From: Embleya scabrispora | Lineage (GTDB): Bacteria; Actinomycetota; Actinomycetes; Streptomycetales; Streptomycetaceae | Assembly (NCBI RefSeq): GCF_002024165.1 | Contig: NZ_MWQN01000001.1 | Coordinates: 2,294,001 to 2,358,000, forward strand | DNA: 64,000 nucleotides | Direction: 5' to 3' | Part shown: positions 11,850-15,583 of the stretch, piece after piece | Position numbering within the stretch: the first letter of the stretch is position 1 | How the letters are laid out: each line of letters starts with the position of its first letter | Program-made: the position numbers and the translations under genes | Notes under the pieces: model-generated | Database searches by the model: none | Told to the model about the DNA's origin: nothing | Seen by the model: the letters and a program-made list of their open reading frames with translations, nothing else

Positions 11850-12071
11850 CTACATGACCGCGATGGCCAGCGCCCGGCGCGCCCGCATGGAGGCGACCTC
11901 GGCCCGACGACGCATCCTGCGCGCCATCCGGACGTGGTACGCCCTGCGTTGGAGCTCCGCCTCGCGGAGCTCCTGATCCATCCGAGCCCTCGCCAGGGCT
12001 TCGTTGATCAGATGCAACTCCCGGCTCCTGTCCATGGGAAGAACTGCGTTCGTGTCGTGAATGTGCTTCAT
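11850..12071 (-). CDS. small basic helical protein downstream of wblC, hypothetical
   Basis: 73 residues, starting MKHIHDTNAVLPMDRS, then a long amphipathic helix rich in Arg, Ala, Glu and Met, with a run of RRMRRR and a hydrophobic end LAIAVM. ATG at 12071 with AGGA 4 nt upstream. It lies 59 nt after wblC in the same direction and ends just before the 25-bp terminator, so it is probably cotranscribed with wblC. No known domain; the high Arg content would allow nucleic-acid binding, but that is speculation. GC-rich codon thirds support coding. Confidence 0.65.
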   Translation of the reverse strand: MKHIHDTNAVLPMDRSRELHLINEALARARMDQELREAELQRRAYHVRMARRMRRRAEVASMRARRALAIAVM

Positions 12072-12130: not shown

Positions 12131-12469
12131 TCACGCGGCGACCTCCGTCTTGCGCGGACGGCCACGGGGACGCTTGCGGGCGACGACGACGCCCTGCACG
12201 AAGAGCTCGCCGCCCCACACGCCCCAGGGCTCGCGGCGCTCGAGCGCGCCCTGCAGGCACATCTCGCGCACCGGGCACTCGCGGCACAGGGCCTTCGCGT
12301 ACTCGACGTCCTCCGGGGACTCCGCGAAGAAGACCTCGGGGTCGTAGGAACGGCAGGGGATCGTGGACTCGAGCTGCTCGACGTCCTCGAAACCGGTGAG
12401 GGTCATCAGGTCTACCTCCGATGTCGCTGTGGCTGTACTGCCGGGTGCGGGGGGTTTGCCGTGGGGCAC
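12131..12469 (-). CDS. wblC: WhiB7/WblC transcription factor
   Basis: A 112-residue WhiB-family [4Fe-4S] protein. The four cluster cysteines are C39, C62, C65 and C71 (CRECPVREMC), followed by the GVWGG turn (83-87) that contacts sigma factor and a C-terminal AT-hook RGRPRK (102-107), diagnostic of the WhiB7 subfamily. In relatives it binds the vegetative sigma factor and activates genes for resistance to ribosome-targeting antibiotics, including its own. GTG 12469 has AGGAG 6 nt upstream; an internal ATG at about 12406 with GGAGG is an alternative. It lies downstream of an intrinsic terminator (12547-12582), so expression probably depends on antitermination. Confidence 0.95.
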   Translation of the reverse strand: MPHGKPPAPGSTATATSEVDLMTLTGFEDVEQLESTIPCRSYDPEVFFAESPEDVEYAKALCRECPVREMCLQGALERREPWGVWGGELFVQGVVVARKRPRGRPRKTEVAA

Positions 12470-12546
12470 GTGGTGCTCCTGTGATTCGTGGGACTCGCGT
12501 CCCCGGTGGTCGCTACTCGGTTTTGCTGACAGCCGACAAAAGACAA

Positions 12547-12582
12547 GGGCCGCGGATCCCGGTGTTCGGGATTCCGCGGCCC
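12547..12582 (-). terminator. intrinsic terminator in the wblC leader (attenuator)
   Basis: On the wblC-sense strand, a 15-bp stem with one bulged base and loop AACAC, followed at once by TTGTCTTTTGTCGG. This is the only hairpin noted in the window with a genuine T-rich tail. It lies 77 nt before the wblC start and after the leader ORF stop, where an attenuator would be expected. Confidence 0.8.
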
Positions 12583-12627
12583 TGGAGGGTGCCGACCTGA
12601 CGTCTCGTCAGGTCCTGTTCCTCCAGG
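12581..12627 (-). promoter_or_regulatory. nested hairpin overlapping the leader-ORF stop; candidate antiterminator
   Basis: On the sense strand, an inner 8-bp hairpin (GACCTGAC, loop GAGAC) at 12594-12614 contains the leader ORF stop codon in its 5' arm. An outer 8-bp pair joins CCTGGAGG (12620-12627) to CCTCCAGG (12581-12588). The outer 3' arm shares two bases with the base of the terminator stem, so the two structures compete there. A ribosome at the end of the leader ORF would cover the 5' arms. Confidence 0.55.
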
Positions 12628-13030
12628 ACGGATACCCGTTGTTCCCGGCAAAGCCGGCCATGGTCATGCCATTGGCCCGCTGCGATTCCTGCTTCTGCGC
12701 CTGCTCGCAAGCCGCCGCGCTCGACGGTCGCTCGTCGCGACGCGCCTTCGCCGCCTGCTCGCCTTGCCACGGACCCTCGGCGCTGTCCGCCAGACCGACG
12801 AGCCCTGCGGCGCCCGCTGCTGCGGACACACCACTGCCGTTGCCGCGCAGTCGCGCGGAGGCGGTGATCAGGGCGTCGGTCCCGGCATAGGACGTCACCA
12901 AGGGGAGCCCGGCCAGGCCGGACGTGGACACGGAGAGATCGGCATGCGACAGCTTGGCGGAGCCCACCGACACCACGACCGGAGTGACGGCGAACGTCCG
13001 ACGCTGGGCTTTCGAGTTCCTGGTAATCAC
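12608..13030 (-). CDS. leader ORF upstream of wblC, hypothetical
   Basis: A 140-codon frame starting GTG at 13030 behind a near-ideal GGAAGGAGG (8 nt spacing) and ending inside the hairpin before the wblC terminator. Codon thirds are mostly G/C, which supports translation. The product begins VITRNSKAQRRTFAVTPVVV, is Ala/Ser/Gly-rich and ends NGYPSWRNRT; no domain is recognised. In mycobacteria and streptomycetes whiB7/wblC is preceded by a short upstream ORF that senses ribosome inhibition; here either the whole frame or only its last 19 codons (from MTMAGF) may serve. A stand-alone function is possible but unsupported. Confidence 0.55.
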   Translation of the reverse strand: MITRNSKAQRRTFAVTPVVVSVGSAKLSHADLSVSTSGLAGLPLVTSYAGTDALITASARLRGNGSGVSAAAGAAGLVGLADSAEGPWQGEQAAKARRDERPSSAAACEQAQKQESQRANGMTMAGFAGNNGYPSWRNRT

Positions 13031-13095
13031 GACGTTCACCTCCTTCCGAGAGGGTTTCGGGGCAACACCGCAGGGGTGCTTCCGGGTTTCATGGA

Positions 13096-13126
13096 CGAGC
13101 ACGGTCGAACGTTCCGACCGTGCTCG
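13096..13126. repeat. perfect 12-bp inverted repeat at the wblC promoter/leader start
   Basis: Arms CGAGCACGGTCG (13096-13107) and its complement (13115-13126) with a 7-nt loop AACGTTC. It begins 3 nt downstream of the proposed -10 of wblC. It would be a 5' hairpin in the transcript if transcription starts at its edge, or a DNA operator. Confidence 0.45.
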
Positions 13127-13128
13127 TG

Positions 13129-13169
13129 AGCGTAGATGCGGTTTGGAGCGGGGCGCAAACGATTTATTG
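13129..13169 (-). promoter_or_regulatory. candidate wblC promoter with AT-rich WhiB7-type element
   Basis: Reading the minus strand: an AT-rich CAATAAATCG block, then TTGCGC (13158-13153) as -35, an 18-nt spacer, and TACGCT (13134-13129) as -10. An AT-rich tract immediately upstream of the -35 is the arrangement described for WhiB7-dependent promoters, so autoactivation is plausible. The transcription start would be near 13122, about 90 nt before the leader ORF. Confidence 0.5.
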
Positions 13170-13205
13170 CATGGCCCTCGTCACTCGAGGGAAACCCCTC
13201 GCGTC

Positions 13206-15422
13206 TCACCCTCCGTCGAGGGCATCCTCGATGGCCGGTTCGAGGTCCTGTTCGACCTCCGGAATGTGCCCGTAGTCGTCCGGATCCGGCTCGATCGCCA
13301 GGTCGTGACCGGCGCACAGCGCGAGTACGTCGTCACCGAATCGCTCCAGCTTGGTCCGGCTCACTCCCGGAATCGCGGCGAGTTGGCGCTCGTTGAGCGG
13401 ACGGGTCTCGGCGATCGCGGTGAGCGTCGCGTCGGTGAAGACCACGAAGGCCGGCTGGCTGTGCTCGTCGGCCCGGCGCAGTCGCCACTCGCGCAGTTGC
13501 CCCAGCAGGAACTCGTCCACGTCCGACGGGCAGTCCAGGCAGCGGCCGATCTTGCGCTCGGCGGCGTCCTGGAGGGCTCGCGCGCACACCCGGCAGCGCA
13601 CCGGGCCGACCTTGCGCCGGGGCCGGGGCAGGCCGCCCGGGCTCGCGCCGGGGCCGGGCGAGCGGTACGCGTCGGGCTGCGCCGAGCCGACGCCGCGCCC
13701 ACCACCGGGGCCGCGCAGCCCGTCCAGGAACCGCGACGCCGTCCGCCCGCGCCCGCCCGGGGTGCGGGCCAGCGACCAGGACAGGGTCAACCGCTCGCGC
13801 GCCCGGGTCACCCCGACGTAGAGCAGCCGGCGCTCCTCCTCGATCTTGTCCGGGGTGTCGGCGTAGGAGATCGGCATCATGCCCTCGTTGAGGCCGACCA
13901 GGAACACCACGTCCCACTCCAGCCCCTTGGCCGCGTGCAGCGACGCGAGGGTGACGCCCTCCACCGTCGGCGCGTGCTGGGCGGCCGCCCGCTCGGCCAG
14001 CTCGACGGTGAAGTCGCGCAGCGTCGCCTCCGGCCGCTTGACCGCGAACTCGTCGGCCAGCCGCGCCAGCGCGGCCACGGACTCCCACGTCTCCCGGGCC
14101 TGACCGGATCCCGCGGGCGGCTCCGCGCTCCACCCGGTGCCGCCGAGCACCGCGCGCACCTCCGCGGCCAACGGCCCGGCCTCGGCGTCGGTGCCGCCGG
14201 AGATCGCGTGCGCGCGCAGGAAGCCCATCGCCTGCCGGATCTCGGCCCGTTCGAAGAACCGCTCGGCGCCCTTGAGCAGGTAGGCCACCGACTGGTCGGC
14301 GAGCGCCTGCTCGTAGGACTCGGACTGCGCGTTGGTGCGGAACAACACGGCGATCTCCGCGGGCCGCACTCCGTCGTCGATCAGCGCGCGGATGCGCTTC
14401 GCGGTGCTCTCCGCCTCGGCCTGCTCGTCGGCGTGCTCGACGAAGTCGGGCTCCGGGCCGGTGCCGCGCTGCGAGATCAGCTGCAGCCGGTGCTTGGCCG
14501 CCTCGCCGCCGGCGCGCGCGAGCAGCCGGTTGGCCAGGCCCACCACCTGCGGGGTCGAGCGGTAGTCGCGGACCAGTTCGACCAGCTTCGCGTCGGGATG
14601 GCGGCGACGGAAACCGAGCAGGTAGGCGGGTGTGGCGCCGGTGAACGAGTAGATGGTCTGACTCGCGTCGCCGACCACGCACAGGCTGCGGGCCCCGGTC
14701 GACCACAGGTCGAGCAGGCGCTGCTGGAGCGGGTTGACGTCCTGGTACTCGTCCACGGTGAAGTGCCGGTATTGCGCCTGCACCGCCTCGCGCACCTCGG
14801 GCCGCTCGTCGAGCAGCCCGATGGTGAGCAACAGCACATCCTCGAAGTCCATCCGGCCCTTGCCGGACTTGATCTTCTCGTAGGCCGCGTAGACGTGCGC
14901 GATCTCGGCGGCGGCGCGCGGCGGCTTGCGGCCCGCCGCGAGCACCGCGCCCGGGTAGTCGTCGGGCGCGGTCTGGGTGGCCTTGGCCCACTCGATCTCG
15001 CCGGTGATGTCGCGCAGCTCGGCCCGATCGGCGCGCAGGCGGCAGTGCGCCACCGCGTCGCGGACCAGCATGATCTTGGTCTCGACCAGCTGCGGCGGCG
15101 GCCCGGCGAACACTTTCGGCCAGAAGTAGGACAGCTGGCGCAGCGCCGCCGAGTGGAACGTACGCGCCTGTACGCCCGGGACGCCCAAATCGCGCAGCCG
15201 GCCGCGCAACTCCCCCGCGGCCCGCGCGGTGAAGGTGACCGCCAGGGTCTGTCCGGGCTGCATCGCGCCGGCGAGCACACCGTAGGCGATCCGGTGGGTG
15301 ATCGCCCGCGTCTTGCCGGTGCCCGCGCCCGCGAGCACGCACACCGCGCCGTCGACGGCCTCGGCCACCCGCCGCTGCTCGGGATCGAGCGCGTCGAGGA
15401 CGTCGTCGGGGGAAGCGATCAT
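13206..15422 (-). CDS. uvrD2: UvrD2-type superfamily I DNA helicase with HRDC domain
   Basis: A 738-residue 3'-5' helicase. The Walker A is AGAGTGKT (31-38), Walker B is VDEYQDVNPLQQ, and later motifs include the YVGVTRAR segment. After the motor comes a tetracysteine pair (CRVC and CLDC, about 595-620) and a C-terminal HRDC domain ending near DLAIEPDPDD, the architecture of mycobacterial UvrD2. It unwinds DNA in repair. The ATG at 15422 has AGGA 7 nt upstream. The gene is codirectional with wblC but separated by the wblC promoter, and divergent from mrx1. Confidence 0.93.
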   Translation of the reverse strand: MIASPDDVLDALDPEQRRVAEAVDGAVCVLAGAGTGKTRAITHRIAYGVLAGAMQPGQTLAVTFTARAAGELRGRLRDLGVPGVQARTFHSAALRQLSYFWPKVFAGPPPQLVETKIMLVRDAVAHCRLRADRAELRDITGEIEWAKATQTAPDDYPGAVLAAGRKPPRAAAEIAHVYAAYEKIKSGKGRMDFEDVLLLTIGLLDERPEVREAVQAQYRHFTVDEYQDVNPLQQRLLDLWSTGARSLCVVGDASQTIYSFTGATPAYLLGFRRRHPDAKLVELVRDYRSTPQVVGLANRLLARAGGEAAKHRLQLISQRGTGPEPDFVEHADEQAEAESTAKRIRALIDDGVRPAEIAVLFRTNAQSESYEQALADQSVAYLLKGAERFFERAEIRQAMGFLRAHAISGGTDAEAGPLAAEVRAVLGGTGWSAEPPAGSGQARETWESVAALARLADEFAVKRPEATLRDFTVELAERAAAQHAPTVEGVTLASLHAAKGLEWDVVFLVGLNEGMMPISYADTPDKIEEERRLLYVGVTRARERLTLSWSLARTPGGRGRTASRFLDGLRGPGGGRGVGSAQPDAYRSPGPGASPGGLPRPRRKVGPVRCRVCARALQDAAERKIGRCLDCPSDVDEFLLGQLREWRLRRADEHSQPAFVVFTDATLTAIAETRPLNERQLAAIPGVSRTKLERFGDDVLALCAGHDLAIEPDPDDYGHIPEVEQDLEPAIEDALDGG

Positions 15423-15583
15423 CGGCACATCCTCTCAGGCATCGCGCCGCACCGAGGCCGGTTGTGCACAGCGGCCCCGATGTGCACAGGCCGGGGAACC
15501 CGGTGGAATCAAACCGAGGGGGTGCACGTTTGGCTTGGGGACAGCCGTTCCCGGACCGGGCGAACACAAAGGAGCGCATGACG

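Follow-up and report, generated by a model that had tools for sequence, protein, structure and literature searches.

How does the leader of wblC (whiB7) in Embleya scabrispora control the gene that follows it, and does it resemble the leaders of its relatives in doing so? The window analyzed here is a stretch of 64,000 nucleotides from a genome of about 11 Mb. In it, wblC occupies 12131-12469 on the minus strand, with a GTG start and 112 amino acids, and is assigned as the whiB7/wblC orthologue by its match to Pfam Whib (64.5 bits) and by the adjoining gene for a UvrD-type helicase (13206-15428). The leader lies between these two genes on the minus strand and measures approximately 650 nt up to GTG 12469, while the plus-strand gene past wblC has an ABC1 kinase domain (Pfam). 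A wblC match at E <= 1e-25 is present in 199 of 200 genomes of the family. The preliminary description had taken this region for a whiB7/wblC leader and had named attenuation by upstream open reading frames (uORFs) as an established mechanism, and on both counts we agree, with all parts of the published attenuator found here. We conclude that the leader is very probably the whiB7/wblC attenuator, a known RNA switch of actinobacteria, in its usual layout. As far as sequence can carry this conclusion, it points to a promoter, a uORF, two RNA structures, their conservation and some covariation. Lee, Lee and Roe (2022; Mol Microbiol 117:179) reportedly described uORF-mediated transcription attenuation of whiB7/wblC. 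The mechanism is also treated as published in the available text of PMC11550727, PMC12421871, PMC13236596, PMC13393426 and PMC4128351.

Transcription of the leader is predicted to begin at a promoter of the kind that WblC itself recognizes. According to the available text of PMC7157823, such promoters carry a box 3 nt ahead of the -35 element, a spacer of 16-19 and a TANNNT -10 element, with transcription starting 7-8 nt further on. The window holds ATAAAT-CGT-TTGCGC-18 nt-TACGCT (13167-13129, minus), in which the AT-rich box ATAAAT (13162-13167) precedes the -35 TTGCGC (13153-13158) by 3 nt and the -10 is TACGCT (13129-13134), so that box, spacer and -10 all agree with the published rule as sequence. 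The same spacing rule predicts a start 7-8 nt past the -10, at about 13121-13122, which is the foot of a stable hairpin (13097-13125, minus; -18.5 kcal/mol for 13123-13093). Box, -35 and -10 of the WblC type with an 18-bp spacer were found in 104/104 family loci that have a Shine-Dalgarno-assigned uORF; a shorter search stretch had given 80/104, and the later, longer stretch gave them all. As for the 5′-end hairpin, an inverted repeat of different sequence occupies the corresponding position in the sister genus (L012-L014), and Streptomyces leaders have other sequences there. A simple pattern scan of 12380-13230 returned no sigma-70-like promoters and no terminator-like sites; it covers one promoter type, and a second promoter before wblC is thus compatible with its outcome.

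The uORF (12608-13030, minus) runs from GTG 13030 over 140 codons to TGA 12610-12608, with the Shine-Dalgarno sequence AGGAGGT (13038-13044) 7 nt upstream, which bears out the earlier claim of a well-initiated ORF; its translation is predicted from these signals. The preliminary description had further suggested that so long an ORF, and the layout as a whole, may be a variant, and here the comparison with relatives decides otherwise. Among 110 Streptomycetaceae loci (107 distinct), a uORF with a GGAGG-containing Shine-Dalgarno sequence and a GTG or ATG start was assigned in 104 (101 of the distinct ones), with a length of 88-163 codons and a median of 108, and the other six still have a GGAGG-led open frame. 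In 40 leaders sampled class-wide from other families, 33 have a properly placed uORF, and these span 59-202 codons when the longest candidate is taken for each. By this comparison, a long uORF is the common state of wblC leaders, and the leader layout of the window is shared by the 107 distinct Streptomycetaceae leaders and by 33/40 of the class-wide sample.

Between the uORF and wblC sits a predicted intrinsic terminator. Its hairpin (12546-12583, minus; -33.3 kcal/mol, z = -7.2 against 300 dinucleotide shuffles) is followed by the T-rich tail TTGTCTTTT (12538-12546, minus) and ends approximately 77 nt ahead of GTG 12469; the T-tailed terminator described earlier is therefore there at the distance given, with a stem of 16 bp and a single bulged base in place of the 15 bp claimed. 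The hairpin that was said to contain the uORF stop codon is likewise present, as the 9-bp GACCTGACG-AGA-CGTCAGGTC (12594-12614, minus), and is nested in a larger antiterminator. In our folds the 5′ strand of this antiterminator is CGGG-TA-TCCGT-CCTGGAGG (12620-12638, minus), made of the last uORF codons, and its 3′ strand is CCTCCAGG together with most of the 5′ arm of the terminator (12567-12588, minus). The pairing proposed at first, between CCTGGAGG (12627-12620) and CCTCCAGG (12588-12581), is one of exact complements, but its overlap with the terminator stem is merely 2-3 nt, and the helix continues beyond these 8 bp with TCCGT on GCGGA and CGGG on CCCG, thereby occupying much of the terminator 5′ arm. 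When only the RNA up to that arm is folded, as in a nascent transcript, a single long helix results, joining the last uORF codons first to CCTCCAGG and then to the arm (12640-12563: -46.1 kcal/mol, z = -6.1). For 12640-12530 as a whole, minimum energy is reached by the terminator together with a short stop hairpin (-63.3 kcal/mol), so the antiterminator would be a co-transcriptional alternative only and the switch would rest on kinetics.

Conservation of the terminator is nearly complete. Terminators that match or closely resemble GGCCGCGG...CCGCGGCC are found in 110/110 family loci (106 by pattern, four by eye), which excludes chance. The class-wide leaders have a terminator by the energy rule in 36/40, and three of the four that fail the rule (L121, L140 and L156) have one by eye; the terminator core GGCCRCG is present in 39/40. 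L157, the sole class-wide leader lacking this core, apparently has a different GC hairpin in place.

The antiterminator is conserved in a looser manner. Streptomyces-type leaders use another register, in which TTCCGYGG and CCCTGGAG pair with CTCCAGGGCCGCGGAA, and a pairing of TGYGGG with CCCRCA extends into the terminator loop. Of 44 folded leaders, 41 have 7 or more of the 11 terminator-arm bases paired, a count that makes a weak test, with on average 14% of control windows doing equally well over the 44 leaders. The window's own genus, at 6/11, is not special, and 57/82 control windows of the same uORF equal it. In an alignment of 42 non-redundant leaders, 86.3% of the antiterminator cells are paired, compared to at most 51.1% in slid controls, where sliding by a single column already brings the value to about 50%; the different register of the window's genus, the sister genus and L036 means that these rows count against the structure. 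The covariation check suggested in the preliminary description came out in favor of the antiterminator, stop hairpin included, with a score of 0.118 versus 0.079 in shuffles (0/500 reach it). It has little to say on the terminator, which is 99.5% paired in the family alignment and almost invariant, and hence leaves little covariation to be seen. There are 48 cells changed on both sides: the stop hairpin accounts for 34 of them, the outer and middle helices for the other 14, and the CCTGGAG helix has none. Pairing fails at the outermost positions in 17 to 24 of the 42 rows, and there is no excess of further pair types in the antiterminator (271/500 shuffles match). For the outer helix, between uORF codons and the upper arm and loop of the terminator, the mean run is 4.95 with matched and 4.61 with shuffled partners, a difference that 0/2000 partner shuffles reach; for this statistic and for that of the antiterminator alike, the shuffles leave the relatedness of the leaders in place. 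Folds and family comparison together thus support the larger antiterminator, formed by the last uORF codons and exclusive with the terminator, in the relatives and less clearly in the window's own genus.

These structures also bear on the view that wblC is controlled chiefly by its promoter or by Rho, with the RNA switch in a minor role. The conserved autoregulatory promoter is in keeping with that view, and a stalled ribosome would leave a long leader untranslated and open to Rho. We nevertheless consider it very unlikely, given how strongly terminator and antiterminator are conserved and that induction by read-through is described for relatives in the available literature.

An attenuator of this kind would operate as follows, with ribosome position, timing, inducers and feedback modeled on published work on relatives. 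RNA polymerase would start at the autoregulated WblC promoter and transcribe the uORF with a ribosome following. Under free translation, the ribosome would have reached the stop codon by the time RNA polymerase transcribes the terminator, and with CCTGGAGG and the stop hairpin covered by the ribosome no antiterminator would form; the GC hairpin and T tail would then take shape and end transcription before wblC. If elongation were slowed, be it by an antibiotic or by lack of amino acids, or if the uORF stayed untranslated, its last codons would be free to pair with CCTCCAGG and next with the emerging terminator 5′ arm, so that the terminator would be pre-empted and wblC transcribed. The WblC product would in turn feed back on its own promoter. 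The earlier proposal of an attenuator is supported by the findings above, and its further proposal, that the leader senses ribosome stalling by antibiotics, is plausible by analogy with the published relatives.

What the ribosome would be sensing can be approached through the evolution of the uORF peptide. In 27 hand-picked close pairs with the last 20 codons excluded, the median dN/dS of the uORF is 0.82 (range 0.42-2.12), versus 0.0 in a wblC core of 65 codons (26 pairs). A specific arrest peptide like those of erm-type leaders, stalling in response to one given drug, is highly improbable as the product of the uORF. Conservation in the family does extend to the C-terminal codons and to an Arg-Pro motif, but those codons belong to the antiterminator and the motif is fixed at its wobble bases as well, which a peptide would not need; the rest of the peptide is unconserved, whereas drug-specific arrest-peptide leaders are marked by a conserved nascent peptide. 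Drift of the peptide within a maintained start, frame and stop itself makes a specific arrest peptide unlikely. It is scarcely credible that the 140 codons simply encode an ordinary small protein, with hairpins that only end the ORF's own transcript and with wblC reached by leaky termination: although long, well initiated and biased by codon position (GC3 0.83), the ORF has no Pfam family, its peptide evolves nearly neutrally, a WblC-type promoter lies upstream and antiterminator and terminator are mutually exclusive in relatives. The uORF is better read as a gauge of general elongation, serving a main intrinsic-resistance regulator of actinobacteria, than as an arrest peptide. Family-wide, selection appears to preserve the reading frame and two RNA folds, and the peptide hardly at all.

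One part of the leader is not predicted by the known attenuator model. This is an in-frame CGA-CCG codon pair, located in the window at 12725-12730 (minus), 40 codons before the uORF stop. It recurs in 103/107 distinct family leaders with both wobble bases fixed, namely in 100/101 leaders with an assigned uORF and in L028, L044 and L088 of the remaining six, and lies 38-71 codons from the uORF stop. The exceptions are L023 (CGA-GGA), L084 (CGA-ACG), L101 (CGG-CCG) and L036, which has no counterpart. CGA is otherwise a rare choice for Arg: its share is 5% among the remaining Arg codons of family uORFs and 4.4% in 29 long ORFs from the window. Its exact 18-base form occurs in 16/61 family genomes with one match each, and a comparison by eye places it 336-438 bases ahead of the wblC match in 15 of these 16 genomes (G009 was left out). 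Beyond the family the pair was seen in 1/35 tabulated uORFs (L149), the table deriving from 40 class-wide leaders of which five gave no uORF. On these counts CGA-CCG is a feature of the family and not of the class.

Codon usage after the pair is also skewed. At codons +2 to +12 past CGA-CCG in the 103 uORFs, Ala is encoded by GCA in 61% of cases versus 6% elsewhere in the uORFs, Val by GTA in 62% versus 1%, Lys always by AAG and Gln always by CAG. A stop in the +1 frame follows within 12 codons in 75% of leaders, compared to 16% at control positions. In the window, the uORF has the CGA-CCG pair but lacks the A-ending patch, with the nearest downstream +1-frame stop, counted by eye, some 20 codons away. 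One possible, still tentative hypothesis joins the pair, the approximately 11 purine-ending codons after it in most relatives and the often nearby +1-frame stop into a programmed slow or slippery site, which would set the elongation-stress threshold for wblC induction. A ribosome that pauses or slips at CGA-CCG would never cover the antiterminator, and wblC would be switched on. If true, this would be a natural inhibitory codon pair acting in bacteria. CGA-CCG is known to stall ribosomes in yeast (PMC7829197 and PMC6379720, in their available text), and the available part of PMC7829197 states that experimental data linking combinations of codons to elongation rate are lacking for bacteria. Against a codon reading of the site, the rare AAA and CAA go unused in the downstream patch. 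Nor is the pair avoided in the window, where the 29 long ORFs, selected by a GC rule, contain 7 occurrences versus 2.1 expected, and this argues against the pair being costly in general in this genome. It is possible that CGA-CCG acts as an RNA or DNA element instead; a search of the 103 leaders for an RNA partner of CGACCG (YGGYYG) gave no conserved position, with 22/103 at the commonest place. Literature searches on whiB7 uORF codons and on inhibitory codon pairs with Streptomyces listed no titles or abstracts that deal with the CGA-CCG site; Lee et al. 2022 may have it. The conserved codon pair and the extended antiterminator are what may still interest specialists in this leader.

The closest known system is the whiB7/wblC attenuator of Lee, Lee and Roe 2022, as reported in citing papers. 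It concerns the same gene, with the same order of promoter, uORF, terminator and gene and with an antiterminator switch, and a response to translation stress is expected here too; as far as those sources reach, we found no difference in layout. Much like the window, the mycobacterial whiB7 leader has a Shine-Dalgarno-led uORF and a stem-loop with a T-rich tail in the available text of PMC4128351, PMC13393426 and PMC13236596, but its transcript starts approximately 350 nt before the gene (PMC4128351), compared to the leader of some 650 nt here. In the ilvB1 leader of Mycobacterium tuberculosis, ribosome position in a uORF likewise selects between terminator and antiterminator, but the sensor is a set of four branched-chain amino acid codons, as described in the accessible part of PMC13236596, and no such run is known as a sensor in the wblC leader. 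The ARE-ABCF leaders tiaA and are5sc also combine a uORF, a terminator, an antiterminator and an antibiotic response; according to the available text of PMC12421871 their uORFs are 3-9 codons long and stalling takes place at the start codon, unlike the 140-codon uORF of wblC.

Searches against Rfam returned no family at the gathering threshold over the whole window, and relaxing the thresholds for 12380-13220 and for five relatives likewise yielded none. A weak likeness to Scr3202 (RF02833, a Streptomyces sRNA) was seen at 12539-12618 (minus), at 27.3 bits against a threshold of 52. It is absent from the matches listed for the five relatives and perhaps stems from the common shape of a hairpin and terminator. 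For wblC itself there is an alternative start, ATG 12406 after GGAGGT (12404-12419, minus), 63 nt inside the 112-aa frame; this GGAGGT and ATG option is also found in L011, L013 and L014, so that wblC may begin at either codon. Just past wblC lies an Arg-rich open frame of 73 amino acids (11853-12071, minus) that has no Pfam family.
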